NCBI GenBank assembly: GCA_017561025.1
Contig: JAFZDU010000024.1
Span: forward strand, 1-56,848
Direction of reading: 5' to 3'
DNA length: 56,848 bases
DNA from: Bacteroidales bacterium
Lineage (GTDB): Bacteria > Bacteroidota > Bacteroidia > Bacteroidales > F082
A model generated the notes under the pieces. The model searched no databases. It was not told the DNA's origin and saw only the letters and a program-made list of their open reading frames with translations. How positions within the stretch are numbered: position 1 is the stretch's first letter; each line of letters opens with the position of its first letter. Positions 22,755 to 46,547 of this stretch are shown in pieces. The translations under genes were made by a program, and so were the position numbers.

Positions 22755-22782
22755 TATACCGAACTCCAGAAAAAATGTTACA
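22755..22782 (-). promoter_or_regulatory. ECF-type promoter of the MoxR-VWA operon
   Basis: On the minus strand: TGTAACA (22782-22776), 16 bases, GTATA (22759-22755). It is a perfect match to the shared island motif, about 93 bases before the MoxR start. Confidence 0.8.
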
Positions 22783-23110
22783 GATTATAAAAAAAATGTC
22801 AATTTTAGACTTTTTGAATCATCTGGTGAAAGTGTATTTTTTTTTTGTATATTTTTGTGTGCAAACACAACAGAAAGGGATATAAGTTTGAGGTTTAATA
22901 GATATTGGAAATTATATGGATAAGTATTTGTATTTTGGAAATATACGAGTTTTATTATGCAAAGATACTGCATAGGTGTTTGGTGAATATATGTTTTTTT
23001 AGATTTTTTTTTAAAAAAATAATGATTTGATTGCTAATAAATTGTAAAGAAAAAAATAAAAAATAATAAAAAAATGAATCACTTTTTCGGAAACATTTTT
23101 AGGCGTATTG

Positions 23111-23118
23111 TATTTTTG
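23111..23118 (+). promoter_or_regulatory. TAnnTTTG promoter of the sigma factor gene
   Basis: TATTTTTG fits the primary-sigma -7 element. No TGTAACA-N16-GTATA site precedes this gene, so autoregulation by that motif is not seen. Confidence 0.45.
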
Positions 23119-23333
23119 CGAAACAAAAGAAGATAAAAAAGCAAGAAAAACAAAAAAATGTAACGAAAGCAACCTTTGAGATACCAAAACACCGAAATAT
23201 CGTAACAGATTAAAATTTCAAATATATCAAAAAGCATTGAAAAATGGCTTAAGTCATCCTTATGCTCTTGAAAAATTGAGATATTTTGAGATAAGTGGTT
23301 GAAAATTAAATTGTTAAACTAAAATATAGTATC

Positions 23334-23930
23334 ATGAGAACAAATGTCACATTAACAGCAAAAGAACTTAACAGCATCACAGAAAAGTATGTTCGTCCAA
23401 CGATTTTAAGTTGTTTTAAAAACCAACCAATCAGAGAGAGAGAATTTGCAGTCAAGGAAGTGTTATGTGATTTCTATTACAAGCTGGCAAAGAATATGGA
23501 TAGTTACAATGAAAACATATCTAAGGGTGCTTGGTTCTCAACGATTGCAGCACATTGTGCGATAGACTATTTAAAAGATTATACTAAAAGAACCAAGAAT
23601 CGGGAGTATTTTAGTTATAGAGACAAAGACGGCGACTATTGCGACATTGATTATTCTGAACCTAGTTGCTCTATTGGCAGTAGTCCTGATTATCAACTTC
23701 TTAATGATGAGGCTATTGACCTTGTCAAGAGGGCTGTGAGAATGCTCGGCAAAGAAGACGCACTTATCATTGAACTCAAGATGAAAGGCTACAGCAACGA
23801 CGAGATAGGAGAGGAGTTGGGCATCAACGACGGTGTGGCGAGAACCAAGATATGCAGAGCTCGCAAGAGATTCGAGGAATGCCTTGCGAAGGCGAGAATG
23901 AGTTCGGAGTTCTTTGTCAATGCAGCGTAG
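23334..23930 (+). CDS. ECF-type RNA polymerase sigma factor
   Basis: The product has 198 residues. The N-terminal half resembles region 2 (FYYKLAKNMDSYNENISKGAWFSTIAAHCAIDYLKDYTKR), with the W(F/L)..IA.....D..R pattern of ECF factors. The C-terminal part is a region 4 helix-turn-helix (DALIIELKMKGYSNDEIGEELGINDGVARTKICRARKRF). A 35-residue acidic linker separates them. No anti-sigma factor with a membrane segment is adjacent, which is unusual for ECF genes. Its position amid the operons carrying the TGTAACA-N16-GTATA motif makes it the best candidate for recognising that motif; this is inferred, not shown. Confidence 0.85.
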   Translation: MRTNVTLTAKELNSITEKYVRPTILSCFKNQPIREREFAVKEVLCDFYYKLAKNMDSYNENISKGAWFSTIAAHCAIDYLKDYTKRTKNREYFSYRDKDGDYCDIDYSEPSCSIGSSPDYQLLNDEAIDLVKRAVRMLGKEDALIIELKMKGYSNDEIGEELGINDGVARTKICRARKRFEECLAKARMSSEFFVNAA

Positions 23931-24255
23931 TTTTTAGGAATTGAGGATTTGAGGAACTGAGGATTTGAGGAACTGAGGAATTGAGGATTTGAGGAACTGA
24001 GGAGTTCAGGGGATATGAGCTTTGTTCGATGACGTGGCTTGATGAAAACGCCAACTTCACCACAGTGTTTGACGACAGCTATTTCCATGCTTCATGGGAT
24101 GTTGATTGATTGGAATTGGGGGAGATTATGGGGTGTGGGTTGTGGGGTGAGTGGTCTTGATAGAGCTACTAGATGTACATATGATTTGGAAATAGATAAT
24201 CGTTATAAACCGCTATGGGATTGTTTTGCAAATGAGTTGAAGCAAAATTTTTTGC

Positions 24256-24283
24256 TGTAACATTTTTTCTTTTATAAAGTAAT
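24256..24283 (+). promoter_or_regulatory. Imperfect ECF-type promoter upstream of Druantia
   Basis: TGTAACA (24256-24262), 16 bases, then GTAAT (24279-24283) instead of GTATA. It is followed within 20 bases by a terminator-like hairpin, so it may drive only a short leader. Confidence 0.4.
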
Positions 24284-24299
24284 ATATATGGGTTGGAAG

Positions 24300-24327
24300 A
24301 GGAGGAGAAGATGATTTTCCTCCTTTT
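24300..24327 (+). terminator. Terminator or attenuator hairpin before druH
   Basis: A 10-bp stem (AGGAGGAGAA/TTTTCCTCCT with one G-U pair) with loop GATGA is followed by TTT. It lies between the imperfect promoter at 24256 and druH. Confidence 0.55.
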
Positions 24328-24444
24328 GTGTTGGTGGAATTTTCTTAAAGTATTTTTGGAGAAAATGTTAAAAGAGGATAACTATACTGATACTTTTTTA
24401 TATATTCGCAAGTGAAATGAATTAAGATAATACTACTTATTAAT

Positions 24445-27400
24445 ATGGCTGAAAAAAATATAAAATCAGGTTTACTTGCTGCGGTTGCTTTGTTGGCAGA
24501 ACAAGGAAATTCGGCAACGTTGGAGAAGTTTGCTGTGGCAGTCGTAGCGGAGACCATATTTTTTAATGACTGGTCATCTATTGATAAAGGTGCTGAAATT
24601 AGTGCATTTACAGATGGGGAAATTAGATTGAAGAATATAGTTAAGTTCATTCGATCTAAGTGCGAAGATCAAAGGCAATATAGAACTTTGAAAGAATATA
24701 ATAGAGAAAGTCTTTACTTGCTGATAGAAAATGAATGGGGAGAGTTTGGCTATGAGCAATGTTTGATACCACTTAAATGGGCATATGAATATGATAAGCA
24801 GAATGGATTGGTGAATTTTGATGGATTTGTAGAAAAAAAACGAAGTGAAGAGAAGAATGGTAAAGAATATAAAATTGATGTGCCATCTTGTGGAGATAGA
24901 GGATATAGTGTTGTTAATGATGGCAATGTAGTTGCTGTTGAGCAAATGGTACAACAGATAAATAATATTTCAACTACGACTAAAGCTGGTGAAGTGAAGG
25001 TAAAGTTGGATTCTATTTATAAAAAACTTGTGGAAAAAAGAGGGGGTGATAATTGCATAAATAATTTTGAGTACATATGGCAATGGAAAATTACCACTAA
25101 AGAGTATGATGAAATAAAGAAACTTCTTGAATCTGATGATTGTAAGAGTTGTATCAGTAGTATTTATAAAAACAATGTGAATTATTGTTTTATCATAGTC
25201 GCTTATGTTGCAGAACGTTATAAACGAGAATGGAATGGCAATGATCGTAATGATAATGCGCTAGAACTAATTGGTTTAGGAGATAACAATAAGTCAAAAG
25301 AAATAGCAGAGAAATACTTTGGAAAAAATAATCCAAAGGTATATCGTCATTCCTCATCTTCAACAAATGAATGGTTGGATTCTCTTCGTATGGAAGGTGG
25401 TTTGCCAATAAACTATATTAACAAAGCAAGTGAGGGTGATAGAACCCAAAATAACTTAGTGAGATTTACCGAGTATTTGTATGAAGATGCTAAAAAGTCT
25501 ATTGGTATTCTTACTGAAAAAACAAATGAGACTACTAGGCATTCTTATGAAAAAGGTTATAGCCTCAAAAAATATATAGATACGCTTTTAGAAGGAGGAC
25601 TGGAGTCTGTTTGTTGTGTGGATTTGGATTCTGATATGTTTAACAAATTTAAAGAATTATTGGAAAACGGTCGGGATAATGCACGACGAAATTCAAAGAA
25701 GTTTGCATATAAGTATCGTATATGGAAATGGGATTCACAAAAAGAATTTTTATTGCATCAAAGTATTGTGCTTAAACAAGATTCTGCTTTTGGAGAAACT
25801 CAAGAACTTATTTCTCGAGAAAGAATAAAGCAATGGGATTCTAAACTGGAAGAGAATGATGTTTTTTGGTTGGAAATAGGTGGTGTGAGATATGAATTCC
25901 ATCCTTGGAAAAAGGAATTCTATCGTTCTGTGAATGGATTTACAGAATTTCCATTGCCAACAACAAAATTTCCTAATTGTAATCTTGTGTTGGATCCAAT
26001 ATATTTTGTTAATCAAAAAGGAGAAAAGAAGAAAATAGATTCTATAGTTGAAGATAACAAAAGTTATATAAAGTTCACTTCGGACAATAGTTATGATTGG
26101 GTGACTGGTAAGAGCGGAGAACTCTCTGCTGTGTTGTTGCGTCGCAGGGCTAAAATTGAATTGGAACATTCTGAGGAAATTTGTAACGTTGGTAATAGTC
26201 TTAGATGGGTGGAATTTTCAGATAGAATTAAAATTGGTGGCAAATATGTGTATTCGGGTAAATTTGATGTACATCCTAAAGATGAAGCTATTCATCCTAT
26301 AGCGAAATATAAGTATATTCGTAGTATATCTTATCGTAAAGATGATGAGGATAGTTTTATATATCTATTGAATTCTTCGAAAATCAAATCAGAGAATTTT
26401 GTTCTTGTAAGGGAAGATGAAAAGGAAACTAAAATTGAAAGTGGTAAAGTCAAATATTGGGATAAAGAAACATCTCAATGGAAGGAATGCGATGAAAATT
26501 TGTCAGGATTGGTGGAATTAGATATAGACGGACAACGTATCAATGCTTATGTCTTACCCGATAATGCAGAAATAACTCGAAATACTGGCGAGGAAAAAAT
26601 CATCTTTAAAAATATTGATATAGGAGTTGTTGATGGATATGAAATAACAACCCATGATAATACTTGGCAAATTAATGATAATTATGCAGAAGGTAATCAG
26701 TATAGGGATAGCATAATTGTTGATGTTAAGGTTGCCGATAATGAATATATATCGTTTGATATTGTCAGACCACTTAGACGAAGTGATAAAAAGTTTAATG
26801 GTCGTATTATGTCGTCAGACCAAAATGTGCCAAAGAATTTGCAGTCTCAATATACGTTGAGAATATTTGATGAAAACGGAGTTAGGTATATCGAAGATAG
26901 AGAAGCGGAATGCTTATACTCTAATAACAAAATAAGGTATAATAATCAACAAGAATTTTACTATATCGCAGAAGGTGCAAATCCTACAATAGAAGATAAT
27001 CTTGAATTTGTTTTCATATTAAATGAAGGTTACAGAGAAATTGATTTGACAATATCAGAGAAGACGATTACAGAAAGTGGTAAAGATAAAAAGTATATTT
27101 GTTTGGAGAATGTGCCAACAGAAAAAGGTGTTATAATTCAAACGCTAAGGAATAAAATGCCAGAAATGACATATTATGAACCATTGTGGTGTGGTGGTTC
27201 AAACAAGTTTGTTTTTGCACAAGAGAATAGTCATAACAAAACGTCTTTGGATAGATTAAAATTATCTGTTAAACACAAACTGTATTTTAAGGAGTTGATG
27301 TATTGTGGCGTAAATGAAGAAAGATATGAGATAACTCCGAAATTGTTGGTTGATTTCTTTGAAGACTATTGTAAAAATCATAACGAATATGATTGGAATG

Positions 27401-27714
27401 CTCTATGGGATATGGTATTTGAATTGGATAAAGATTGGATGTCTATTCCTCGTGGAGTATGGTGTGAATTTGCAACTGATGATGAAAAGAAAAAACTAGT
27501 GTGTGATTTATTTAAAAATAGACCAAATACGGATTCGGAAGTTTTTGATAGATTTGTTGATAATTATTGGAGTTTGGAATGGAATCCTAAAAAAGGAAGA
27601 AGTAACAATGCATATAAATTTCTAAAAACTATATTGGATAGTGGTGATTTCTATAACCTTCCAGATATGGATAAAGACTTCAATGAAGAACTTGATAGAT
27701 TATTGAATAATTAA
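24445..27714 (+). CDS. druH: DruH-like protein of a type III Druantia defence system
   Basis: The product has 1089 residues and no catalytic motif that I recognise. It has a short helical N-terminus, charged central regions and beta-rich stretches, and the C-terminus contains WNALWDMVFELDKDWMSIPRGVWCEF. The call rests on context and size: type III Druantia consists of a large uncharacterised DruH of about this length directly upstream of the giant helicase DruE, and the gene here ends 23 bases before such a helicase. The protein probably works with DruE against phage. It is markedly AT-rich relative to flanking core genes, consistent with transfer. It could be another helicase-linked partner if DruE were misassigned. 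Confidence 0.65.
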   Translation: MAEKNIKSGLLAAVALLAEQGNSATLEKFAVAVVAETIFFNDWSSIDKGAEISAFTDGEIRLKNIVKFIRSKCEDQRQYRTLKEYNRESLYLLIENEWGEFGYEQCLIPLKWAYEYDKQNGLVNFDGFVEKKRSEEKNGKEYKIDVPSCGDRGYSVVNDGNVVAVEQMVQQINNISTTTKAGEVKVKLDSIYKKLVEKRGGDNCINNFEYIWQWKITTKEYDEIKKLLESDDCKSCISSIYKNNVNYCFIIVAYVAERYKREWNGNDRNDNALELIGLGDNNKSKEIAEKYFGKNNPKVYRHSSSSTNEWLDSLRMEGGLPINYINKASEGDRTQNNLVRFTEYLYEDAKKSIGILTEKTNETTRHSYEKGYSLKKYIDTLLEGGLESVCCVDLDSDMFNKFKELLENGRDNARRNSKKFAYKYRIWKWDSQKEFLLHQSIVLKQDSAFGETQELISRERIKQWDSKLEENDVFWLEIGGVRYEFHPWKKEFYRSVNGFTEFPLPTTKFPNCNLVLDPIYFVNQKGEKKKIDSIVEDNKSYIKFTSDNSYDWVTGKSGELSAVLLRRRAKIELEHSEEICNVGNSLRWVEFSDRIKIGGKYVYSGKFDVHPKDEAIHPIAKYKYIRSISYRKDDEDSFIYLLNSSKIKSENFVLVREDEKETKIESGKVKYWDKETSQWKECDENLSGLVELDIDGQRINAYVLPDNAEITRNTGEEKIIFKNIDIGVVDGYEITTHDNTWQINDNYAEGNQYRDSIIVDVKVADNEYISFDIVRPLRRSDKKFNGRIMSSDQNVPKNLQSQYTLRIFDENGVRYIEDREAECLYSNNKIRYNNQQEFYYIAEGANPTIEDNLEFVFILNEGYREIDLTISEKTITESGKDKKYICLENVPTEKGVIIQTLRNKMPEMTYYEPLWCGGSNKFVFAQENSHNKTSLDRLKLSVKHKLYFKELMYCGVNEERYEITPKLLVDFFEDYCKNHNEYDWNALWDMVFELDKDWMSIPRGVWCEFATDDEKKKLVCDLFKNRPNTDSEVFDRFVDNYWSLEWNPKKGRSNNAYKFLKTILDSGDFYNLPDMDKDFNEELDRLLNN

Positions 27715-27737
27715 TAAAAGAATAAAAAATATATAAT

Positions 27738-30700
27738 ATGGCAAAACAAGAAATGAGTTTTAAGAAGCTATACGTTGATAGCAAATCTAAAATTGCAGAA
27801 ACAGTCATCAATATGTGGAAGGAAAACTCTCCAAAGATGGTTGAACGATATGATGAACAGCTTAAAAATATTATCATAAAATGTATAAGTGACAATATTG
27901 TTGTGGAAAATATGGCTCATTGGGAACCAGCGGCAAATGACTTGGATTGGCGGTATGTCGTCAATGAAAAAATTTGGCGAAAGAGAGATAATGATAATAA
28001 TATTGTAGAAAATAAATTTACACCATATAAACACCAGTATGAAAGTTGGAAGACGTTATTGGATGATAATAAATCCATAGTTGTTACATCAGGAACTGGT
28101 TCTGGTAAGACAGAGTGTTTCATGGTGCCGCTTGTGCATGATTTGACAAAAAATCAAGATTGCAATGATAATCGAAAAAGAGCAGTGGAAGCCTTGTTTC
28201 TTTATCCGCTGAATGCGTTGATGGAAGACCAGAAACAGCGTATGGATAATTATATCACCTTTAGTGAAAGAGATTTGAAGTTTGCCGTGTATAATGGTAA
28301 TACGCCAGAAAATGAGAATAGTCCTAAATTCGATTATGAGAGGGATGATAATGGTAATATAATTAAACCCTATCAAAACGAGATATTGACTCGTGACGAG
28401 ATTCGTAGAGAAAGACCAAATATTCTCTTCACTAATCCGTCAATGTTGGAATATATGCTTCTCCGTAAGGTTGATAGTGATTTGTTTACTAAAGAACTGA
28501 AATGGATTGTCATTGATGAGACTCACACATATAAAGGTTCGGCAGGTGCTGAATTGGCAATGTTGATTAGACGAGTTTTGAAAGCTTGTGGGAAAGATGC
28601 AAATGATATAAAATTCGCTACATCATCAGCTACCATAGGAAGTGGGGATAAAGAAGCGAAATCTAAATTAAAGGAATTTATTTCTAATATCACTGGACAA
28701 GAACTTGATAAGATAGAAGTGATAGAAGGCCGTCGCACAGAACCAAAGGTTGACGATGGACGTATAAAGAACTCTTTGAAAGAAAACGACTTTGTCTTAC
28801 TTAAAGATTTGATTTCAGAAGGAACGATAGAAGAAAAATTGGCTAAACTGGATGAATTGGCAGATGCAGGTCTTCGTATTCGTTTACATTATTATTTGCA
28901 GACGCTTAACATGGGCCTTTTTGTTGACCCTCGTAAAGTTGAAGATGGAAAATTTGTCCTAAGCAATACTATACCATTAGAAGATGGTAAACTTGATAAA
29001 CATTATTTGGATGCTTATTATTGCAAGGAATGTGGTGCAGTGCTTGGTTATGGTGAAATGGATAACGACCATAAGTTCTCTCGTAAAATACAGGAAGAAG
29101 TGGCTTCACTTGAAGATTATGCGGAAGAAGATGATAACAACAATGACGGCAGTGATAACGCGAATGTTTCATCTAAATTGTTGCCTGAATTTTATGTTGG
29201 CATAAATGACAATAATGAAAAAAATCCAAATGACGGACTTTGGAAGTTGGAAGAGGAAGAAGATAAGTTTGTAAATAATGATTCATCAGGAATTTTCAAG
29301 CTTAAACATGTTGATTTGAATAATAAGAACGAATTGATACATTATTGTCCATGCTGTGGAGTTCATGGAACAGGGAGATTAAAGCCAATGCGTTCGTTTC
29401 ATATGTCGGCAGATTATATTAGCAGACTTATAGCACCGATTTTGCTTGAACAGACATCTCCAGCTAATGTAAATGCAGAAACGCTTCCATGTCAAGGCCG
29501 TAAGTATATTGCTTTCGCTGATAGCCGTCAGTCTGCAGCAGGTCCTACTTTAAAACAAAACCTTGAAACAGAAGAGGTATGGGTGACAGGAGTGTTGTAT
29601 AACTGGTTGAGAAAATGTGCTGAGATAACTGATGATGAGAGAGAGAAATTGTCGGATGAACAACGCAATCTTAATTTAAAAAGAAAGAATCAGCGAACAG
29701 ATGATGAACAGAGAAGAATAGAGGAAATACAGTTGATATTAGACAATGTTGGTTACCTCACTTGGTGTGAAGCCTTGGGTGTTCTGCGTGATGACAAAAG
29801 AAACTTTGAGAGGATGTTCCTTGCTTTTGCTAAGCAAGATGATAGGAATGATGAAAAATCAAAGAATGAGTATGCGTTGTCGGCTCTGTACAGAGTGATG
29901 GCACGTAATGGTGCTAATGGTAAGAACAGTCCGGAAAACTGGGGATTGATATGTACGCATTATCCTGCTTTAGACAATTTGAAGAATAGAACACTTCCAT
30001 TGACTATTGAAAAATTTAACAGTCTTATCTCCGATGATAATCTGAAAATAACCCCTAAAGATTGGTATGACTATGTGAAGATTTTCATTGATTATGATAT
30101 TCGTCGTCATGAAAGGTTTTTCTTCCAATATGATGGAAATGCTAATAATTGGAATGAGATAGACTATGGCGTCACTCGTCAATATAGAACAGAAACTAGT
30201 AATAGGCGTCCTATTGACGGTGAAGAAAGTAGAATGCAAGTCGGTGATAACAGATATACCAAACTTCTTCTTAAATTATTAGGTAAGGAAAAATGTGCAG
30301 ATCTGAATGTTGGTGAAAAAGAAATTGTTTCGGGAGTTATAGAACAATTGAAGAAAGACCTTGAAGCATATGAAATAAAGGAAGTGGGTCAAGAGTTAAA
30401 TTGGAGGTATGACGAAGATAGAAAGAAATGGGTGGTGAACAATAGGAATAATTGGGTGCCTTCTAAAAATAATGCTCATTATATGAATCTTTCTCATATT
30501 GCATTCAAACTTTATGATGAAAAAGTATGGTTCGATAACAATCTGCGCATTCCAGTAAGTACAACATTCAAAGGTTATTCTCCTGAACGCAGAGATAATC
30601 AGAAGTATGATGTTAAATGTGAAAAAATAGATTGGAAACCATATAACAAGAATGAGGAAAGTAAAACTTGGTTTAAAGAAAATAGAAAACCAATCTTGCA

Positions 30701-33700
30701 TAAATGGACAAGTAAGTTAGAGCAAATTCTTGATTACTCAGATAATAACAATACTTTATATGTACAAGCTGAGCATACTGCACAGGTGGCAAGAAGCATA
30801 ATTAAAGAAAAGACAGATGAGTTCAAGAAAGGCGAGATTAATATCATGGCATGTTCTACAACCATGGAAATGGGTGTTGACCTTGGTGACTTGGAATTGG
30901 TGCTTATGAATAATGTGCCACCGCATCCAGCTAACTATAAACAGCGTGCTGGTCGTGCTGGTCGTGGTGACCAGAACAAGAGCGCATCAGTGACAATCTG
31001 CGGATGTGATGCTTCTGGCAATGCGTTGATGCATGATCCGCTTAAAAATCTTATATGTGCTCCTATAGAACCTCCAAAAGTTGATCTAACAAGCCCTCAG
31101 CTTATTCAGCGACATATTAATAGTTATCTGCTTCGTAAATATTTTAATGAGAATGGAATTAGATTTAATCCAGGTATGGATGCTGAAAATGATAATGGGT
31201 ATAAATTGTTTAAGTTCTTTACAGAAGGATATGAAGATATTGCATGGGATTCAACATATGAAACACGTATTGTTAAAAAAGACATTAGTACTATAATATT
31301 ACCCATTAATTATGAATCAATTATAAAAAGCCAACCAAATTCTGCATATAATGAATTTATATCTAAATTAGATGGATATGCTACAGATCCATCTGTTATT
31401 GCAGATGTTGAATCATTGGTGAAAGATACTTTCAAAGTTGAGGCTGATGCAGTGGCGTTAATACTAAATACAAAATATACAATTGAAAAAATCGCTAAGG
31501 ATTTGGATGAGGAACTGAAGTCTATCCAAAACCTATGGGAATCCGCAGGAATCGATACATCTTCCCCAAATGATCCAAAGACAAATCCATGGAAACGATT
31601 GAATTATAGTTTTACATCTATTCTTAGCAAGAATTTGTTGTCGTACCTTTCCACTCATCAGTTTACACCGAATGCCAATATGCCTGTTGGCATCGTTGAG
31701 ATGGTTATAGACGACAATGAACGTCATTCAACGGAGAATCCTTCTAGAGATATGAGAACGGCTCTTTCAGAGTACGCTCCTGGTAAAATGGTGTTTATAA
31801 ATGGCGTCACTTATCTTATGGGAGGTGTGAAATGGAATTATTCGCAAAAAAATCAGAAACTGAGAATATGTTCTAATGGGCACACATGGTTGGGAGAAAC
31901 GGAAAATTGTCCTAAATGCAAAAAATCAGCAATAGATATTGATGGTTTTGGTGAATATATGGATGTAATGATCCCAACTGGTTTCTATCCTTACAAAGAT
32001 ACTTCTCGCATTACCCAGAAGGATGCGATAAGTTTGGTGTTGGATACTGCGCTTATTGGTGTGGGCAATTGGAAAAGCAATCCGGATGACCAACGTTTGT
32101 ATATGATTCGTACAAATGAAGATAATACAAATTCGCAGATACTCTATTATAACAAGGGTTTGGGTCGAGGATATTATGTATGTAAAGAATGTGGATATGC
32201 AGTTCCAGTGCATCAAAATGCAAGTGGTAATGAAGATATACAAAAAAAACTATATCCTATAGAGAAAGGTAAAGAAAAATACCATAACTATCGTGGCAGG
32301 AAATGTAAATGTGATGATAGTGATACTGTACTTAAAAATGTTGTGTTTGGTGGTGCTATGCAAACAGACTATTGCGAGATAGCTTTGTTTGATAATGCTA
32401 CTCAACGTATGCAATATTCGGAAACTAATAATCATGTGGCATATACATTGGGTTTGATATTGTGTAGAGAGTTTGCAAAAAGAAAGAACTGTGATGGTAG
32501 CGAATTTGATTTCATTGTACGTAGACAAGATGGAAATTTGTCAATCTGCATATTCGACACAGCGAAAGGTGGAGTAGGTTATTCCAAGTCAATAAACGGA
32601 CATGTTATCGACGAGTTGTTTGATAGAATTCGTGAAATGTTGAAAGATTGTACTTCAGCAGACAAGATACTTGATCGTACGACAATGAGAAAATATGCTG
32701 ACTTTATTAATGTTAAGGCAACATATGAATGGTTGGATAGTGAATATAAATTCCGTAAAAATGTTCCTAAAGAAATAAAGAACCAACTGCCGAATGCAAG
32801 AGTTTCATGCTACAGCGAAGTTGAATATGCTATAAAGAATATTCAAGCAGGAGAGCAATGTGCATTATTCTTTAATGGAAAGGAAATTAACAAATGGAAC
32901 TACAATGAGCGTGATGTGAATTGGTTAAGTAATAGAAGTTATTTGAATAATAATTGTCCACAACAAAAAACATTTGCGGTGTATAATATGCCAGTTATGA
33001 TTGCTTCTTCTGATGAAGAGAAAATGGGAAGATCAATCAGAACCGGTGAATGGAAAAAAATAGATAATCCATTGGGTAATTTGTTCCCACTCGCACAGAT
33101 AGGTAGTACATTGTATTTTACTGATAAAAAAGAATATTCAGCATTGAATGGGGTTTGGGCATCGGGATATGTATATTCTGTAGACTATGAACCCATTGAT
33201 TTTAATGATTTGAATGTTGTTAAGGTTGGCGATGATCATTATACGTTTCAAGAAGATAGAAATCAACGCAAATCTGATAGTTTGTTTGATGAATTATATG
33301 AAAATTCAAATAGACTGCGAGATTTTATTACAGCATGTAATGGACATAAACTTTCATTTACTTATCATGAAGAGTATTTGCGAACACATCTTGGCATGAC
33401 AATCACTTTGCAATTCATACGAGAATTTGCAAAAAAGGCGGAATCTCAAATTGAATTGATTAAGATTGTTGGCGAAGAATATGATGATTCAAGATTATAT
33501 AATGATTGGAATTATGATGTGTATGAACGACCTAATAAGTTGTATATAAATTGTTTGAATCACGATAAAAGAGACGATTATGTTATAGGTGTGTTCTTGG
33601 AACCAATGTTGAATAATGAAGAATTTGAAGAATATGAAGTTGAATCTGTACAAGAAGGAAGATTGCCTCATTGGAGAGCTCTTATTGTTAAAGATGAAAC

Positions 33701-33884
33701 AACAGGTGCTGTTATAAATATTCTTCCTAACGGAGGTTTTGCCAATGGATGGGAATTTGATAATAGAGAATTTAAGCAAGGTGGATGGTTCCCTTCAAAT
33801 TGTGACATTGATACAGCTATACCAATTAAGATTAGTGATTCAAATGGATTGCTGTATGATATTAAAGTTGGAGAATTGAAATAA
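27738..33884 (+). CDS. druE: DruE-like giant DEAD/DEAH helicase with DUF1998 domain
   Basis: The product has 2048 residues. A superfamily 2 helicase core starts with FTPYKHQYESW and Walker A TSGTGSGKTE (about 116-125), then LYPLNALMEDQ, DETH (about 258), SSATIG, and motifs V-VI (CSTTMEMGVDLGDL and QRAGRAGRG near 1069). Large insertions separate the halves. Zinc-type Cys pairs occur at CKECG (near 428), CPCC (near 536), CSNGHTW...CPKC (near 1377) and CKECG (near 1481). A DUF1998-type segment (CIFDTAKGGVGYS, near 1600) follows. This size and order are those of DruE, the hallmark of Druantia. It should act on nucleic acid in the cytoplasm. Other DUF1998 helicases (DISARM, MrfA) are shorter. Confidence 0.82.
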   Translation: MAKQEMSFKKLYVDSKSKIAETVINMWKENSPKMVERYDEQLKNIIIKCISDNIVVENMAHWEPAANDLDWRYVVNEKIWRKRDNDNNIVENKFTPYKHQYESWKTLLDDNKSIVVTSGTGSGKTECFMVPLVHDLTKNQDCNDNRKRAVEALFLYPLNALMEDQKQRMDNYITFSERDLKFAVYNGNTPENENSPKFDYERDDNGNIIKPYQNEILTRDEIRRERPNILFTNPSMLEYMLLRKVDSDLFTKELKWIVIDETHTYKGSAGAELAMLIRRVLKACGKDANDIKFATSSATIGSGDKEAKSKLKEFISNITGQELDKIEVIEGRRTEPKVDDGRIKNSLKENDFVLLKDLISEGTIEEKLAKLDELADAGLRIRLHYYLQTLNMGLFVDPRKVEDGKFVLSNTIPLEDGKLDKHYLDAYYCKECGAVLGYGEMDNDHKFSRKIQEEVASLEDYAEEDDNNNDGSDNANVSSKLLPEFYVGINDNNEKNPNDGLWKLEEEEDKFVNNDSSGIFKLKHVDLNNKNELIHYCPCCGVHGTGRLKPMRSFHMSADYISRLIAPILLEQTSPANVNAETLPCQGRKYIAFADSRQSAAGPTLKQNLETEEVWVTGVLYNWLRKCAEITDDEREKLSDEQRNLNLKRKNQRTDDEQRRIEEIQLILDNVGYLTWCEALGVLRDDKRNFERMFLAFAKQDDRNDEKSKNEYALSALYRVMARNGANGKNSPENWGLICTHYPALDNLKNRTLPLTIEKFNSLISDDNLKITPKDWYDYVKIFIDYDIRRHERFFFQYDGNANNWNEIDYGVTRQYRTETSNRRPIDGEESRMQVGDNRYTKLLLKLLGKEKCADLNVGEKEIVSGVIEQLKKDLEAYEIKEVGQELNWRYDEDRKKWVVNNRNNWVPSKNNAHYMNLSHIAFKLYDEKVWFDNNLRIPVSTTFKGYSPERRDNQKYDVKCEKIDWKPYNKNEESKTWFKENRKPILHKWTSKLEQILDYSDNNNTLYVQAEHTAQVARSIIKEKTDEFKKGEINIMACSTTMEMGVDLGDLELVLMNNVPPHPANYKQRAGRAGRGDQNKSASVTICGCDASGNALMHDPLKNLICAPIEPPKVDLTSPQLIQRHINSYLLRKYFNENGIRFNPGMDAENDNGYKLFKFFTEGYEDIAWDSTYETRIVKKDISTIILPINYESIIKSQPNSAYNEFISKLDGYATDPSVIADVESLVKDTFKVEADAVALILNTKYTIEKIAKDLDEELKSIQNLWESAGIDTSSPNDPKTNPWKRLNYSFTSILSKNLLSYLSTHQFTPNANMPVGIVEMVIDDNERHSTENPSRDMRTALSEYAPGKMVFINGVTYLMGGVKWNYSQKNQKLRICSNGHTWLGETENCPKCKKSAIDIDGFGEYMDVMIPTGFYPYKDTSRITQKDAISLVLDTALIGVGNWKSNPDDQRLYMIRTNEDNTNSQILYYNKGLGRGYYVCKECGYAVPVHQNASGNEDIQKKLYPIEKGKEKYHNYRGRKCKCDDSDTVLKNVVFGGAMQTDYCEIALFDNATQRMQYSETNNHVAYTLGLILCREFAKRKNCDGSEFDFIVRRQDGNLSICIFDTAKGGVGYSKSINGHVIDELFDRIREMLKDCTSADKILDRTTMRKYADFINVKATYEWLDSEYKFRKNVPKEIKNQLPNARVSCYSEVEYAIKNIQAGEQCALFFNGKEINKWNYNERDVNWLSNRSYLNNNCPQQKTFAVYNMPVMIASSDEEKMGRSIRTGEWKKIDNPLGNLFPLAQIGSTLYFTDKKEYSALNGVWASGYVYSVDYEPIDFNDLNVVKVGDDHYTFQEDRNQRKSDSLFDELYENSNRLRDFITACNGHKLSFTYHEEYLRTHLGMTITLQFIREFAKKAESQIELIKIVGEEYDDSRLYNDWNYDVYERPNKLYINCLNHDKRDDYVIGVFLEPMLNNEEFEEYEVESVQEGRLPHWRALIVKDETTGAVINILPNGGFANGWEFDNREFKQGGWFPSNCDIDTAIPIKISDSNGLLYDIKVGELK

Positions 33885-33930: not shown

Positions 33931-33958
33931 TGTAACGTTTTTATACAATGATAGTATA
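33931..33958 (+). promoter_or_regulatory. ECF-type promoter of the GIY-YIG gene
   Basis: TGTAACG (one mismatch), 16 bases, GTATA; about 90 bases before the ATG at 34047. Confidence 0.7.
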
Positions 33959-36916: not shown

Positions 36917-36944
36917 AATACTTATGATGATAAAAAATGTTACA
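36917..36944 (-). promoter_or_regulatory. ECF-type promoter of the DUF2130 operon
   Basis: On the minus strand: TGTAACA (36944-36938), 16 bases, GTATT (one mismatch), about 46 bases before the start codon. Confidence 0.7.
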
Positions 36945-37025: not shown

Positions 37026-37053
37026 TGTAACAAAAATATAAAACAGTAGTATA
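37026..37053 (+). promoter_or_regulatory. ECF-type promoter of the duplicated-domain gene
   Basis: TGTAACA (37026-37032), 16 bases, GTATA (37049-37053), a perfect match, 50 bases before the ATG at 37103. It is divergent from the DUF2130 promoter, 80 bases away. Confidence 0.8.
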
Positions 37054-38293: not shown

Positions 38294-38305
38294 TTTAAAA
38301 AAATC

Positions 38306-38333
38306 TGTAACATTTTTTCTTTCCTTAAGTATA
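38306..38333 (+). promoter_or_regulatory. ECF-type promoter of the WG-repeat gene
   Basis: TGTAACA (38306-38312), 16 bases, GTATA (38329-38333), perfect; 58 bases before the ATG. Confidence 0.8.
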
Positions 38334-39003: not shown

Positions 39004-39031
39004 TGTAACAAATGTTGGTTTTGGAAGTAAA
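39004..39031 (+). promoter_or_regulatory. Near-consensus ECF-type site
   Basis: TGTAACA, 16 bases, GTAAA (one mismatch). The next plausible gene starts at 39205. Confidence 0.45.
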
Positions 39032-39386: not shown

Positions 39387-39415
39387 TGTAACATTTTTTT
39401 CTATTTTTGGGTATA
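39387..39415 (+). promoter_or_regulatory. ECF-type promoter of the ART-like module
   Basis: TGTAACA (39387-39393), 17 bases, GTATA (39411-39415). The transcript would carry the 45-residue ORF and the ART-like gene. A heptamer repeat (GTCCGTTGTCCGTTGTC) lies in the leader. Confidence 0.65.
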
Positions 39416-39615: not shown

Positions 39616-40074
39616 ATGCCTCAGACAGAAATATTTTATCACGGAACATGTCGCCTCTTTGATAAGTTTTCGCTTTCTTTCTTGGGAGAAGGCGAGGGCA
39701 AGTCGAAGTTCGGGCATGGCATCTATATCACTTCGAGTTATAAGACCGCCGCACTCTATGCCTCAAAGGCGGCAAAAGCCAATGGCAAGGATTGCTACTA
39801 TGTCTATACTGTTGAAGTTCCGATGCTTACAGCGAATAATCACATATTTTCTTGTAAAACTGTTAATGCGGATGTGATATCGCGTGTCGAGCAGAAAATT
39901 GGAGCGAGCATCCCTGATGAGGTGAAAGGCGCAGGAAAATACTTTCGTAAGTATCTTGGCAACTTGCTGACCGGACAGAAGGGAACCGTCAAGAAGATGA
40001 TGAGCTGTAACCGACGAATACTTCAGCAAGAACATTATGGGACGCCTGCTTATGGAGTTGCGAGAAAATGGTAA
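39616..40074 (+). CDS. ADP-ribosyltransferase-like protein, probably frameshifted near its end
   Basis: The product has 152 residues. The start, EIFYHGTCRLFDKFSLSFL...SKFGHGIYITSSYKTAALYASKAA, has the HGT and FG.GIY...A..YA pattern of PARP-like ART folds such as DUF3990, which move ADP-ribose from NAD to a target. A catalytic Glu is not clear. The annotated end (about 129-152) is unconvincing. After a shift near 40003-40010, another frame continues as VTDEYFSKNIMGRLLMELR... to a TGA at 40100-40102 that overlaps the ATG of the next ORF (ATGA), as in coupled genes. I infer an indel in the gene or the assembly. The role is likely a toxin or conflict effector. Confidence 0.6.
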   Translation: MPQTEIFYHGTCRLFDKFSLSFLGEGEGKSKFGHGIYITSSYKTAALYASKAAKANGKDCYYVYTVEVPMLTANNHIFSCKTVNADVISRVEQKIGASIPDEVKGAGKYFRKYLGNLLTGQKGTVKKMMSCNRRILQQEHYGTPAYGVARKW

Positions 40075-40249: not shown

Positions 40250-40277
40250 TGTAACAAAAAATAGGGAAGATGGTATA
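40250..40277 (+). promoter_or_regulatory. ECF-type promoter of the DUF1810-HD gene
   Basis: TGTAACA (40250-40256), 16 bases, GTATA (40273-40277), perfect. Transcription would start near 40284, which favours the ATG at 40329 over the one at 40284. Confidence 0.8.
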
Positions 40278-40328: not shown

Positions 40329-41345
40329 ATGAATACAACAGAAAAAATCAAAAACTTTGAATTTGCGAATAAGGCGGTTTTTAATGATGCTCTCAACGAG
40401 ATGAAACATGCTCGCAAGAAGTCACATTGGATGTGGTGCGTCTTCCCTCAGGTCTTTGGCTTTGGAAAGAACGAAAAATCGTATGAGTATGCGCTATGCA
40501 GTTTCGATGAAGCGAAGGCTTTTCTCTCTCATCCGGTGTTAGGCAACAATCTTCGAGAGATCTGCGCCGCGCTGATGAATCTGAATGGAACCAATGCGAC
40601 TCGTATATTTGGAGAGGATTACAAGAAACTGCGTTCGTCTATGACGCTTTTCAATGCCATACAGCCTGACGATATCTTCCAGCAGGTGATTGACAAGTAT
40701 TTCAAAGGCGAGGGCGACAAACTCACGCTTTGCCGAATGAGTCTTGAAAGCCGTGTGAAGAACGCCTTGGATTACATCGGCATTGATGCAAAGGATTTCA
40801 ATATCGTTCCAAGTATGTATGACAGACCTCGTGGCGAGGCGATGCATCGTTTCAGCCATATTTATCGCGTGATGATCGGGACTGCGCTGATAGCTCATAA
40901 GATAGGTGAAGCTCGTCTGGGTCTCCTCGCTTTTATTGCTGCTTTCATTCATGACCTTTCTCGCAATAATGATGGTAATGACCCTCAGCACGGTCGCAGA
41001 GCGGCGGAAACGAAGTTGCCAAAACTGACACATATACTCTCGAAATACAATGTCACTAAAGAGGAGTATGGTATGGTCGCTGATGCTGCAACTTATCATT
41101 GCGAACGCATTGACAAGCAGATGTCTGACGAAGGCTACAAGGTGTGCAAGATACTTTCTGACGCAGATGCGCTGGACCGCTGCCGCTTTAGACATCAAGG
41201 TCGCCTTAATAGAGATTATCTGTATTTCCCTGAAAGTCATAAATGTATAGCTCCGATTGAATTTGTTTTCAAAGAGAGCGTGCGACATGGTAAGATAAAC
41301 AATGAGATTCCATTTGCGGAGTTTCTTAAAGTCACGGAGTTTTAA
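40329..41345 (+). CDS. DUF1810-HD phosphohydrolase fusion
   Basis: From the ATG at 40329 the product has 338 residues. Residues 1 to about 140 match DUF1810 (SHWMWCVFPQVFGFG, YALCSFDEAKAFLSHPVLG, LRSSMTLFNAIQPDD, KLTLCRM). From about 165 on is an HD domain: HRFSHIYRVM, FIHDLSRNND (near 205), a later His (ATYHCERI) and a DADALDRCRF segment. HD enzymes hydrolyse phosphate esters, often nucleotides; the role of DUF1810 is not established. The gene lies between an ART-like gene and a NADAR gene, so a nucleotide or ADP-ribose-related substrate is a reasonable guess. Confidence 0.8.
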   Translation: MNTTEKIKNFEFANKAVFNDALNEMKHARKKSHWMWCVFPQVFGFGKNEKSYEYALCSFDEAKAFLSHPVLGNNLREICAALMNLNGTNATRIFGEDYKKLRSSMTLFNAIQPDDIFQQVIDKYFKGEGDKLTLCRMSLESRVKNALDYIGIDAKDFNIVPSMYDRPRGEAMHRFSHIYRVMIGTALIAHKIGEARLGLLAFIAAFIHDLSRNNDGNDPQHGRRAAETKLPKLTHILSKYNVTKEEYGMVADAATYHCERIDKQMSDEGYKVCKILSDADALDRCRFRHQGRLNRDYLYFPESHKCIAPIEFVFKESVRHGKINNEIPFAEFLKVTEF

Positions 41346-41575: not shown

Positions 41576-43018
41576 ATGTCAAAAAACAATAATTCATTCA
41601 TACGTTATAAGGCGCTGGACAGATGCTTCCGCGATAACCTCCATCGTTATTTCATTGAGGATCTGATAGGTGAATGCGAGAAGGAGTTCGAGTCGTTGGG
41701 CATCGCTGCCAAGGTGAGCCGCAGACAGATTTTCGAAGACATCCGTTTTATGGAGAGTGAAGAGGGATGGGGCGTCAAGCTGAATCGTCTGAAGGATGGA
41801 AAGAGAATCTACTACCGTTATGAAAAAGGCTGTTCCAAAAGCAATGTTTCGCTTACGGAGATGGAGGCGAAGCACTTGCGGAATACTATAAGCACACTGG
41901 AACGTTTTTGTACGCTGCCTGGTTATGAATGGGTTAATGATGTCATTGTCAATTTGGAGTATAGGCTGGGCTTGAAAGGAAATGGCGATGATATCATCTC
42001 TTTTGAGAAAAAAGGCAAAGGCGTGACCAGATTGCCCGTCATACTGGATGCCATATTGAATCATAAGGTTTTGAGAATGAGGATGGATTGGGGTTGTAAG
42101 AGGGGTGGTGTCTCCTTGCATCCTTATTTCGTGAAGCAATCGAGCGGAAGATTGTTCGTTATAGGTTTTAATCCTAGAAAAGGCGCAGTGGCGATGTATG
42201 ATATGGATTGGATTACAAAACTGAAAAAGGTCGATGACATGGAGTTTGTTCCCCAAAACAACACTATCGACTTTACTCATGCATATGATGATATTTTAGG
42301 TGTGACTCATCCCGATAAGAAAGTTAAGAAGGAACATATCATATTGCAGTTCAGTGAGAGTTGGTTTCGGAATATATACAATAACCCGATTCACCATAGT
42401 CAGAAGATTGTCAATAAAAAACTATGCCGTATCAGCCTTGATCTGGTGCCGAACCAGGAACTGATTTCCCAGCTGCTTTATTATGGGGCAGATGTTGAAG
42501 TGAGATCACCGGAGTCGTTGAAAAGAATGTTGATGAAGGAACTGCTTAGAATTGCGGCTAAATATAAAAAGTACTCGGAATTCGAGACTCTGAATGTCAG
42601 ACATATGTGCTCGGCTAAATCTGAAGCGACTCGTCGTGAGAAGGCGTATAAGCAGATAAATGAATTTGATTTCAGATTGAAACATGGAAGCGTTACTTAT
42701 GATAATCCTATATCGTTGTTTATAGAAAAGCGTAAGTCAAAAATAGCAAGTATGCATAATTATTCTATTGACGAGATAGTCGGATATGTCAGAAATTATT
42801 TCTTGCTTGGAAATGGTGTTCGGAAGGTCGATTCAGATGGAAAAGAGCAGATAATGGTGAGATTTCCTGATGTTAAAAGCAATTGTAAACTTGTGAAAAA
42901 GGCGCTGGATATTTGCGGATGTAGTTTGGTTGATGAAAAATCAAATGGTATTATAGATGGCACGAAATGGATGACATTGTATTTTGAACCGCAGATGGAT
43001 ACGAACTTAGAACTTTAA
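41576..43018 (+). CDS. WYL-domain transcriptional regulator
   Basis: The product has 480 residues. The N-terminal 75 residues form a winged HTH of the YafY/WYL type (FIRYKALDRCFRD, KVSRRQIFEDIRFMESEEGWGV). A WYL domain follows (about 160-225, LRMRMDWGCKRGGVSLHPYFVKQSSGRLFVIGFN) with a WCX-like C-terminal part (KEHIILQFSESWFRNIY, LRIAAKYKKYSEFE). The last 120 residues are an extra domain not usual in the family. WYL regulators commonly sense nucleic acid or nucleotide ligands and control defence genes. It sits in the middle of the ART-like/HD/NADAR group and starts from its own TAnnTTTG promoter. Confidence 0.85.
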   Translation: MSKNNNSFIRYKALDRCFRDNLHRYFIEDLIGECEKEFESLGIAAKVSRRQIFEDIRFMESEEGWGVKLNRLKDGKRIYYRYEKGCSKSNVSLTEMEAKHLRNTISTLERFCTLPGYEWVNDVIVNLEYRLGLKGNGDDIISFEKKGKGVTRLPVILDAILNHKVLRMRMDWGCKRGGVSLHPYFVKQSSGRLFVIGFNPRKGAVAMYDMDWITKLKKVDDMEFVPQNNTIDFTHAYDDILGVTHPDKKVKKEHIILQFSESWFRNIYNNPIHHSQKIVNKKLCRISLDLVPNQELISQLLYYGADVEVRSPESLKRMLMKELLRIAAKYKKYSEFETLNVRHMCSAKSEATRREKAYKQINEFDFRLKHGSVTYDNPISLFIEKRKSKIASMHNYSIDEIVGYVRNYFLLGNGVRKVDSDGKEQIMVRFPDVKSNCKLVKKALDICGCSLVDEKSNGIIDGTKWMTLYFEPQMDTNLEL

Positions 43019-43040: not shown

Positions 43041-43754
43041 ATGAACAAGTTAGATTATATCAAAGAACGTCTGAACGAAGCAAGGTTACGCGATGATTTG
43101 TCAAAAGTGGTGACTGATGTTGATGCTCTCATTCCGCAGAGCGAGACGGAGTTTGACGAGATTCAGAAGTTCGGTCTTTATCCTGCCGAGCGCTGCCAGC
43201 CTTTTGTCACAAGGCAGGGTACGCCTTTCTATCAGCTTGATAATATGGCGATGGTTCCAAATGGCGACACCGCCAACTATCTGAAATACGGCGATTATGA
43301 GTTTCGTCAGCTGGAGATTCTGTATAATATGCCTCGCATGGACAGTGCGGAGGCTCACTTCTGGCTTAAGGACAATCTGTTTCAGAAGTGCCGCGTGGAT
43401 GCTCGCAAAAAGACAGAATACAAGGCCAAGTTCCGTGGCATGGAGCGTGCCGACTGGAAAGAGATTCAGGTGGAGTGGATGAAATATTGTCTCATGCTCA
43501 AATACCGATGCAACGCCTTGTTCCGTAAAGACCTTTATGCCTGCAGCGGCAGACTTCCTGTCGAAGACGCTACTAAGACTAGGTATGCTTCGAATCTTTT
43601 CTGGGGAGCGGCGCTTGTGGAACAGGATGGCGAGAAGTTCTATTTCGGATGCAATGTCCTTGGAAAACTGCTGGCGCAACTGCGTGCGAACAACGGAAAA
43701 CTCGATTACAAACTCCCTGAGGATTTGCATGTTTTTGGGGAAAAGATAATATAA
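43041..43754 (+). CDS. NADAR-domain protein
   Basis: The product has 237 residues. The second half carries the NADAR pattern: EILYNMPRMDSAEAHFWLKD, W....EWMKYCLMLKYRCNA, DLYACSGRLPVED, LFWGAAL (near 187) and CNVLGKLLAQLR (near 203). The family includes enzymes that remove ADP-ribose from guanine and antitoxins of DarT-like toxins. The N-terminal 85 residues are an extra, unknown part. It lies 22 bases after the WYL stop and should be on the same transcript. With the ART-like gene 3 kb upstream, a role in undoing ADP-ribosylation is a fair inference, though a nucleotide salvage role cannot be excluded. Confidence 0.8.
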   Translation: MNKLDYIKERLNEARLRDDLSKVVTDVDALIPQSETEFDEIQKFGLYPAERCQPFVTRQGTPFYQLDNMAMVPNGDTANYLKYGDYEFRQLEILYNMPRMDSAEAHFWLKDNLFQKCRVDARKKTEYKAKFRGMERADWKEIQVEWMKYCLMLKYRCNALFRKDLYACSGRLPVEDATKTRYASNLFWGAALVEQDGEKFYFGCNVLGKLLAQLRANNGKLDYKLPEDLHVFGEKII

Positions 43755-45180: not shown

Positions 45181-45190
45181 ACCAAAATCC

Positions 45191-45218
45191 TGTAACAAAA
45201 TAAATCAATGTCGGTATA
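45191..45218 (+). promoter_or_regulatory. ECF-type promoter of the Cys-rich gene and paralogue B
   Basis: TGTAACA (45191-45197), 16 bases, GTATA (45214-45218), perfect; 42 bases before the ATG at 45261. Confidence 0.8.
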
Positions 45219-45260
45219 TAACCATAGATAATGAATTTTTAACAATTAAATCTAGATGTT

Positions 45261-45458
45261 ATGAGTAAGACAACTGTTCCTACAAGTTGGCGCAACTGCG
45301 CAACATGCCGTCATTGGACTGGCAATGCTATCCCTAATGCTTTCTGTTCTTATGTAGAAGTAGATACACATGAAACAGGTAAATGCATGGGAGGTGGTTA
45401 CTATATGTGTAATATGTATCCTCTTCAATCTTGTAACAAACATGAAGCCAGATGGTAG
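45261..45458 (+). CDS. Small Cys-rich protein (65 aa)
   Basis: The product has six Cys in 65 residues: a CATCRHWTG start, then Cys at FCSY, GKCMG, YMCNM and LQSCNK, with several His. This suggests one or two zinc-binding sites. There is no signal peptide. It stands six bases before paralogue B behind a perfect TGTAACA-type promoter, so the two are co-expressed. Whether it binds nucleic acid or protein is open. Confidence 0.65.
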   Translation: MSKTTVPTSWRNCATCRHWTGNAIPNAFCSYVEVDTHETGKCMGGGYYMCNMYPLQSCNKHEARW

Positions 45459-45464
45459 TGGGTT

Positions 45465-46253
45465 ATGAATTACGAATTGATTGAATCTTACGCAAAAAGG
45501 GCAGAGAACCATGACGTTATGGATGCCCTTGTATTACTTACAAAAGCTTACATCGACCAGTGTGGCATCAGTCTGGGTTATAGGACGGTGATATATTGTG
45601 CAGCAGAACAATGGCTTGAACGGCTCGCTTGGCTCGACTTGCCGCTTTCCGAAATGGCGAGAAAAGAGGCTCTGGTGACAGTGATGCCTTACATTACAAG
45701 CGATTATGATCCAGAGGAGTACGACGATTACGACATTGCAGGCATGAGTGAAGAAGAACTTATGGATGCATGTGAGGAAATGATACAAGACGGTGAATAC
45801 GATGAACTTACAATCGAATTGTTGTGCTGGGGTATACTTAAATCTGTTAATGAAGAATTGATAATCTATAAGGAGATTGAAACCGTCGCTCCTGATGGAA
45901 CGCTCCTTAAAGGTGTACTCATAGATCAGTCGCGCGCATGGACGAGCATTAGAATGGAATCTCCTTATGAAGTATCTTTTTGTAAATCAGAACTGATACG
46001 CGATGCAGAAGCGTTTATGATTCAAGGTTATGAAGATTATAAACGACTTAAGGAAATGGAATCAGAAATACGTGCTTTATATCCTAAATATCAAGAAGAA
46101 CTGAGTAAGTTGGATGACGAGAACAATTGGAAAAAACGGAGAATTTTCAAAATGGTATATGCTGAAATACTTGGAGATACTGTCATTTGTTCCCCAGAAA
46201 AGTTGTTCAATAATTTGTTCGGACTTGAATTTTTTGAAAGAGCGTCTTGGTAA
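45465..46253 (+). CDS. Unknown protein, paralogue B of a local pair
   Basis: The product has 262 residues and is homologous throughout to the gene at 44245-45027. Conserved blocks are HDVMDAL.LLTKAY, CGISLG.RTVIYCAAE, LAWLD.PLSEMARKE, E...LCWG.LK, TVA.DG.LLKG and YPKYQEEL. It has no known domain. The two copies differ most in the central acidic stretch. Unlike paralogue A, this copy follows a dedicated TGTAACA-type promoter via the Cys-rich gene. A REP-like hairpin begins a few bases after the stop. Confidence 0.7.
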   Translation: MNYELIESYAKRAENHDVMDALVLLTKAYIDQCGISLGYRTVIYCAAEQWLERLAWLDLPLSEMARKEALVTVMPYITSDYDPEEYDDYDIAGMSEEELMDACEEMIQDGEYDELTIELLCWGILKSVNEELIIYKEIETVAPDGTLLKGVLIDQSRAWTSIRMESPYEVSFCKSELIRDAEAFMIQGYEDYKRLKEMESEIRALYPKYQEELSKLDDENNWKKRRIFKMVYAEILGDTVICSPEKLFNNLFGLEFFERASW

Positions 46254-46387
46254 TGGAATTATTATGGTAGAGACGTCACCCCTGTGGCGTCTTAAAAAAA
46301 TGTAGAGACGCGAAGAATGTTGGGAATGGGTTGCTCACAACTCATAGCTCACTGCTCATTGCAAATTTTCAATTTTCAACTCCCAAT

Positions 46388-46481
46388 GCGTTAGGGATTG
46401 AAGCGGCATCCTTTTGGAGCGAAGTGATAACGGAGCGAGAAAAGATAGAGCGGAAAGCCCGACGGCTTTGCCGGAACGCCC
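46388..46481 (+). repeat. 95-bp interspersed repeat, copy 2
   Basis: It runs from GCGTTAGGGATTGAAGCGGC to GCCGGAACGCCC. The same family is found at 19000, 51619 and 53999 (reverse). Confidence 0.85.
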
Positions 46482-46519
46482 AATGAAAGACTAAAGATTT
46501 TTTAAGTAAACCAAAATCC

Positions 46520-46547
46520 TGTAACATTTTTCTTTCCATTAAGTATA
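46520..46547 (+). promoter_or_regulatory. ECF-type promoter of the AAA ATPase gene
   Basis: TGTAACA (46520-46526), 16 bases, GTATA (46543-46547), perfect, and the flanks closely resemble the site at 38306. It lies 59 bases before the ATG at 46607. Confidence 0.8.

Follow-up and report, generated by a model that had tools for sequence, protein, structure and literature searches.

Defence genes cluster in islands, and the reason for this clustering, like the manner in which such genes are switched on jointly, is largely open. The 56,848-base stretch analysed here (the window: positions 1-56,848 of contig JAFZDU010000024.1, assembly GCA_017561025.1) raises both questions in a Bacteroidales bacterium (F082) that is known from its genome sequence alone (2,793,328 bases in 126 contigs, 84% complete). 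Between about 22 and 47 kb, most genes of a conflict-type island stand behind copies of one short sequence, TGTAACA-N16-GTATA, and a gene for a sigma factor of extracytoplasmic function (ECF) type begins at 23334. Is this sequence a promoter, and what reads it? The sequence comparisons described below make it probable that the island-borne ECF sigma factor drives a conflict regulon of several systems, and that the promoter changes with the sigma factor.

A promoter-like motif shared across the island

The following copies are found in the window.

22755..22782, minus strand: exact motif, before the MoxR-vWA genes
24256..24283, plus strand: weaker motif (TGTAACA-N16-GTAAT), 161 bp before the DruH-like gene
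33931..33958, plus strand: motif with one mismatch, before the GIY-YIG gene
36917..36944, minus strand: motif with one mismatch, before the DUF2130 gene
37026..37053, plus strand: exact motif, before open reading frame (ORF) 37103
38306..38333, plus strand: exact motif, before the WG-type ORF 38392
39004..39031, plus strand: weaker motif (GTAAA), 131 bp before ORF 39163
39387..39415, plus strand: 17-spaced motif, about 200 bp before the ART-like ORF 39616
40250..40277, plus strand: exact motif, before the DUF1810-HD gene (start probably 40329)
45191..45218, plus strand: exact motif, before ORFs 45261 and 45465
46520..46547, plus strand: exact motif, before the AAA ATPase gene

An earlier note on this DNA had listed eight sites, all of which are present at the positions and on the strands it gave, six exact and two (33931 and 36917) with one mismatch; its additional sites, one 17-spaced (39387) and two weaker (24256, 39004), are likewise there. 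With up to one mismatch allowed, TGTAACA-N16-GTATA has nine matches in the window; 100 dinucleotide-preserving shuffles, run to set the chance level, average 0.26 and never exceed 2. All nine matches lie no more than 200 bp upstream of a co-directional start, a space that makes up about 5.1% of island positions and strands. The relaxed form TGTAAC[AG]-N16/17-GTA occurs in 11 of 14 upstream regions of the island and in 0 of 16 outside it (Fisher p = 6.7e-6), the three island regions without it being those of the sigma gene, the WYL gene and ORF 43842. An unbiased count of all spaced 4-mer pairs over the same 14 and 16 regions, to which the motif was not supplied, returned TGTA-N19-GTAT, TAAC-N17-GTAT and their overlaps as top dyads (8/14 island versus 0/16 outside; the best dyad in 30 single-base shuffles reached 6). 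A second element, TAnnTTTG, which we take to be the housekeeping -7 promoter form, is distributed differently: it stands upstream of the sigma and WYL genes, both without the motif, and in 11 of the 16 outside regions versus 4 of the 11 motif-bearing island regions.

The copies might instead have no part in regulation, being units of a dispersed repeat or of a leader cassette that has been copied, and some spacers and upstream ends are indeed alike (24256, 38306, 46520 and C8:4595, the last on another contig of the genome). When 12 sites are aligned with 60 bases before and 80 after, however, every column above the 95% shuffle limit falls within TGTAAC and GTA; as the sites were chosen by motif, the informative part of this alignment is the flanks, which are unconserved. 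The direction of all nine sites towards a gene start, and the recurrence of the same pattern with another -35 element in a second island (below), also make the repeat explanation very improbable.

The layout is that of an ECF-type promoter, with a constant spacing of about 16 bases between two short elements that lie upstream of genes and share their direction. The likeness to ECF promoters drawn in the earlier note is supported by the -35 element of SigW, GAAACCT (PMC6713349), and by the Sinorhizobium RpoE7 promoters, in which TGTAACA is followed by CGAA 15-16 bases on (PMC6180224).

The candidate reader

23334..23930, plus strand: ECF-type sigma gene (198 residues), candidate reader of the motif; no motif upstream, TAnnTTTG at -223

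The product of this gene scores 50.3 bits with the sigma-70 family ECF profile TIGR02937 (cut-off 42.9) and 32.6 bits with Sigma70_r4_2, the profile of -35-reading region 4 (cut-off 25.7); it stays below the cut-off of Sigma70_r2, though its alignment with SigE and SigW (E 0.005-0.011) extends through region 2. It does not belong to the type III-E CRISPR-associated sigma factors (NF041236, 23.9 bits versus a cut-off of 100), and no gene resembling an anti-sigma factor was recognised beside it.

Orthologues of the sigma factor were sought widely. In the family, 68 of 173 genomes match at 1e-3, with no orthologue among them (28%, E 3.5e-10 for the best besides its own); the genus gave a single match (26%, E 7.9e-4) among 98 other genomes, again not an orthologue. 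A short-pattern scan of 84,980 species genomes gave no close orthologue (two Flavobacterium, 30-32%); viral contigs held none, and the eight plasmid records with a match were all below 60%, none of them close. Eighteen phage records match at about 25-29%; by name these are presumably crAss-like. TGTAAC[AG]-N16/17-GTA was not found near the sigma homologues of loci L032-L062.

The motif across the genome

The earlier note reckoned that an equal density of the motif elsewhere would overturn the idea of a regulon. All eight exact copies in the genome lie on the island (six) or on contig C8, of 9.3 kb (two). Genome-wide scans were controlled with the reversed pattern. TGTAACAWWWWN{11,12}RGTA matches 13 times (window 9, C8 2, C37 1, C114 1) against 2 in the control, the copy on C37 being 17-spaced and that on C114 weaker (GTAGT). 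With one mismatch allowed, 33 matches compare with 44 in the control, and the scan therefore informs only where a copy is exact or nearly so. The note's statement that no copies occur outside 22-47 kb thus stands for the window and fails for the genome, and its motif-driven regulon gains support while losing its confinement to the island.

The C8 copies precede a UPF0227-type hydrolase gene and a leucine-rich repeat (LRR) gene; the C37 copy precedes a small ORF of zinc type, beyond which lie a PD-(D/E)XK gene and a UvrD-type helicase gene. Neither contig carries a sigma relative of the window kind, so regulation there would be in trans, and the regulon probably works in trans as well as on the island. 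Tetranucleotide usage of both contigs matches that of the window (r 0.90-0.96). The two contigs appear neighbouring by their LRR gene ends; an exact end overlap of at least 15 bases was not found, and contiguity is not claimed. As a separate observation, a 324-residue protein on C8 (1008-1982, L104) shows a weak domain match to ORF 37103 (window 37103-37882; 27%, E 0.001).

C8 also brings forward a different reader. A paralogue (71-73% identical) of the WYL regulator encoded at 41576 adjoins the motif copies there, where no sigma gene is seen, and TGTnACA is a small inverted repeat; the motif could accordingly be an operator of the WYL regulator, or of another DNA-binding protein, and not a promoter core. 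The fixed gap of 16-17 bases to GTATA suits a sigma factor better, and WYL homologues occur in 40 of the 173 family genomes, those in the genus without a motif set. A further test of this operator explanation comes from the second island.

Relatives of the genome and of the island genes

Of the genomes sampled, only this one has the sigma factor and the motif set. A single exact copy occurs in each of 12 of the 98 other genus genomes, where the reversed pattern is about as frequent, and none holds a motif set. TGTAACAWWWWN{11,12}RGTATA matches ten times in this genome (control 0) versus 0-2 times in each of 392 others in the order sample (393 genomes, this one included) and 0-1 times in each of 394 others in the phylum sample (395, likewise). 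No exact copy is present in G072 (ParE 98% identical), and the genes beside its MATE gene are different.

The island genes themselves have relatives that lack the motif. MoxR homologues (54-61%) occur in four other genus genomes, with no motif upstream and no ECF-type gene on the flanks examined. In these four, AAA and MoxR form a co-directional cluster with 1.7-4.5 kb between them; in the window, 24 kb separates the two genes, which mark the two ends of the motif zone and are each preceded by an exact copy. For DUF2130 homologues, the motif was upstream in 0 of 19 scored (5 of 24 were unscored, no start having been found).

A second island with its own sigma factor

A search with MoxR recovered a record from IMG/VR, IMGVR_UViG_3300042816_000186 (G950; 35,896 bases, 51% GC), whose MoxR is 68% identical to that of the window; a 21-kb part of it is locus L212. 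It also carries homologues of the vWA (62%), AAA (49%), ART (45%), NADAR (36%) and WG (31%) proteins, and a relative (25%) of ORF 19876. An ECF-type sigma gene (start taken as the ATG at G950 20754) stands directly before MoxR, and its product exceeds both domain cut-offs, at 39.8 and 29.6 bits; a second ECF-type gene lies at 28873-29406 on the minus strand. By eye, the ORFs at 1-7000 resemble a Mu-type phage end, which may explain the presence of this record in a virus collection; its MoxR has no plasmid match at 1e-40.

The motif of this island is TGAAAGA-N16-GTATA, with nine matches in L212 versus 0.05 expected, and nine (six exact) over the whole record versus one in the control. Seven of the nine sites have a co-directional ORF starting within the next 200 bp; the ORFs concerned include the ORF 19876 relative, the sigma gene, MoxR and AAA. 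The earlier note had asked whether motif, sigma gene and defence-type genes occur together in other genomes; G950, whose island likewise bears a sigma gene and has a shifted -35 element, is such a case. It also tells against the WYL operator: this island has a motif set and no WYL homologue at E 1e-3 over its 35.9 kb, and TGAAAGA is not a dyad. An operator of that kind is therefore unlikely, and a sigma factor remains the better candidate for reading the motif.

Possible pairing of sigma factor and promoter

An ECF-type gene was found in 2 of 43 MoxR neighbourhoods, those of the window and G950 (from the 22-row order search, the window's own match and a partial match in G531 were left out of the set); flanks often end at a contig edge, which makes the absence of a sigma gene from the others weak evidence. 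A dyad scan of 37 loci, each compared with 20 single-base shuffles (L221, L225 and L227 omitted as two near copies and one short locus), gave X-N16-GTATA as the top dyad in the window and in L212. Seven of the 37 exceeded their own shuffle maximum (window, L212, L156, L272, L253, L215 and L266); L215 shows a CCGGAA-type repeat and L266 a palindrome. Sigma gene and GTATA dyad thus tend to occur together, a tendency seen over loci with many short flanks.

The -35 elements allow a closer comparison. In SigW, K170 contacts G'-31, T171 contacts A-34 and R175 contacts G-35 (PMC6713349). The residues aligned to these three are Arg-Thr-Arg in the window sigma factor, Ala-Thr-Arg in the G950 sigma factor beside MoxR, and Tyr, Val and Arg in the second G950 protein. 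If the promoters are placed in one register by setting the TG of SigW, window and G950 equal, which is an assumption, base -31 is C in the SigW and window promoters and G in G950. A basic residue is thus present at the SigW 170 position where a template-strand G is present at -31, and the match of Arg to Ala with C to G between window and G950, in a comparison of three sequences, suggests that reader and promoter have changed together.

A third such case was sought. Viral scans with MoxR, AAA, vWA, ORF 45465 and the G950 sigma factor returned no sigma-bearing island besides G950, and the AAA loci L306-L309 lack a motif of this kind and, at E 1, any ECF-type gene. Three islands with MoxR-vWA genes, L155 (G094:C12), L156 (G095:C39 25612-48197, which also holds McrBC-type and PD-(D/E)XK genes) and L272 (G100:C5), share another sequence, TTTGAAW-N16-CTATA, at four, eight and five sites respectively, all on one strand and none elsewhere on the contig parts examined, where no ECF-type gene was found at E 1 either. 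Several of these sites continue as TATATTTG, which we take to be a housekeeping promoter form, and the three islands were for that reason read as housekeeping-type and rejected as a third sigma case.

Could another sigma factor of the host chromosome read the motif, the island having merely borrowed it? The genome is 84% complete, and a further ECF gene may be missing from the assembly; the islands of G095, G100 and G094 also show that a promoter-like sequence can be shared with no ECF-type gene on a contig of 95-180 kb. Set against this, no exact or near-exact core set occurs outside the island, C8 and C37, none is present in the 98 genus relatives, and G950 combines the same island core with its own sigma factor and its own motif. 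A borrowed host motif is thus improbable, and the sigma factor encoded on the island is preferred.

Several findings weigh against this preference. The window protein scores 14.0 bits with Sigma70_r2, below the cut-off of 24. Position -34 does not covary with its reader, being A in SigW, T in the window and A in G950 while residue 171 is Thr in all. The window and G950 sigma factors are 23-26% identical, and a tree, with very long branches that leave kinship unresolved, does not group the former with the latter. The second ECF-type gene of G950 could be the reader there, and two of the G950 sites (23674 and 26869) have no co-directional ORF of at least 70 residues starting within the next 200 bp. 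In the window, the four motif genes with TAnnTTTG within 260 bp may be served by other promoters, and the spacers at 24256, 38306, 46520 and C8:4595 are 69-88% alike, so the sites are not all independent. Sigma-bearing islands, finally, number two only.

Genes of the island

20448..21575, minus strand: vWA-like protein (DUF2201), PF09967 51.4 bits; 62% homologue in G950
21577..22662, minus strand: MoxR-type AAA ATPase, AAA_5 34.4 bits; 68% homologue beside the sigma gene in G950
24445..33884, plus strand: Druantia type III-like pair (DruH-like 24445-27714, DruE-like 27738-33884)
34047..34730, plus strand: GIY-YIG protein, PF01541
35531..36871, minus strand: DUF2130 protein, PF09903 7.1e-88
39616..40074, plus strand: ART-like protein, PF18760 32.2 bits (cut-off 31.2); 45% homologue in G950
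40329..41345, plus strand: DUF1810 + HD protein, start taken at the second in-frame ATG, not at 40284
41576..43018, plus strand: WYL regulator, no motif upstream, paralogue on C8; rival trans factor
43041..43754, plus strand: NADAR protein, PF08719; homologue in G950
46607..48321, plus strand: AAA ATPase, IetA-like (PADLOC IetA 1.2e-28); 49% homologue under the G950 motif

The assignment of conflict genes of many kinds, made in the earlier note, goes by family name; only the Druantia-type pair, the NADAR and IetA-like matches and ART can be linked directly to defence families already known. In PADLOC the pair matches DruE3 at 4.7e-278 and DruH3 at 7.9e-9, the latter over residues 211-370 of 1089 only. 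The window MoxR scores 14.6 bits with bpMoxR (PF20030), the profile used to judge membership of the MoxR-vWA ternary conflict systems, whose cut-off is 27; Pfam gave no extra domain on the vWA protein, and no dedicated search was made for a third component (VMAP, iSTAND, TERNS3) or for an effector fused to vWA. From these families, the island genes (Druantia III-like pair, NADAR, ART, IetA-like AAA, GIY-YIG) would form a conflict regulon acting against phages or other mobile DNA.

Several further features were noted. The AAA gene is split between ORFs 46607-46924 and 46810-48321, which overlap in different frames, by either a true break or an assembly slip. ORFs 44245-45027 and 45465-46253 are paralogues, 62% identical, with the motif before the second only. 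Short tandem-like GAGGAATTGAGGA and CACCGAGACACCAAG repeats lie in intergenic DNA at 23930-24020, 38200-38300 and 39080-39140. Flavo-1 RNA elements are found at 18995-19071, 51607-51700 and 54024-54118, with relatives on C8, on C37 and at 46382-46513, the last a remnant directly before the AAA promoter. A cobalamin riboswitch (15253-15437) precedes a TonB-type gene.

Relation to known systems

Judged from sequence, the island would work like an ECF regulon whose sigma factor matches the general ECF profile and not Pfam region 2. As in SigW of Bacillus subtilis and other ECF regulons, one small sigma factor with region-2 and region-4 similarity faces many promoters, with a -35 of TG-AA type overlapping GAAACCT and about 16 bases to the -10. 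Unlike those regulons, no anti-sigma gene was recognised beside the sigma gene and no orthologue in genus or family; the regulon here comprises conflict-type genes of one island plus C8 and C37, and the -10 is GTATA. RpoE7 of Sinorhizobium meliloti shares the TGTAACA element; phylum and -10 are different, and RpoE7 is paired with an anti-sigma gene (ecfR7) and governs a different set of genes.

Sigma factors have been tied to defence before. Csx30, the cleavage target of the activated protease, binds the RpoE-like sigma factor of type III-E CRISPR (Craspase) (PMC9729208); there too the sigma factor is encoded within a defence system, but it serves one system, whereas many unrelated genes are involved here, and NF041236 does not recognise the window protein. 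Kaur and colleagues described MoxR and vWA as a regulatory core and, separately, ECF sigma genes beside caspase/TRADD-N systems (PMC8195603). The island shares the MoxR and vWA core, while ECF-sigma coupling belongs to separate systems in that work, which, in its consulted portion, reports neighbourhoods only and no shared promoter; bpMoxR, moreover, is below cut-off here. No description of such a shared-promoter regulon was found in the open-access full-text literature, which is not proof of absence.

Proposed mechanism

In the model favoured here, the sigma factor (23334) would bind RNA polymerase and read TGTAACA as -35 and GTATA as -10, with transcription starting about 40-190 bases before most island genes; in trans it would act on the C8 genes at least, and probably on C37. 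As the sigma and WYL genes are without the motif and have TAnnTTTG, the switch in the window would be made by normal polymerase and the effectors by the sigma factor. In G950, where a motif site precedes the sigma gene, the sigma factor would feed on itself. The MoxR-vWA pair, beside the sigma gene in both islands, may be the trigger or threshold, which is a guess.

Implications

If this model is right, an island-borne sigma factor that marks genes by their promoter would be a simple answer to both clustering and joint switching, with many unrelated defence-like genes switched on together. Conflict genes would then be findable by promoter instead of homology, and genes of no assigned role would become candidates: in the window ORFs 37103, 39163 and 44245/45465, and the hydrolase and LRR genes of C8. 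More tentatively, and with somewhat less than even confidence, the island sigma factor may be a private password: unrelated defence-like genes, within the island and elsewhere in the genome, would be captured by gaining one promoter, sigma factor and promoter would drift together until one core obeys a different -35 sequence in each of two organisms, and the whole would be a mobile, self-contained immune regulon of many systems.

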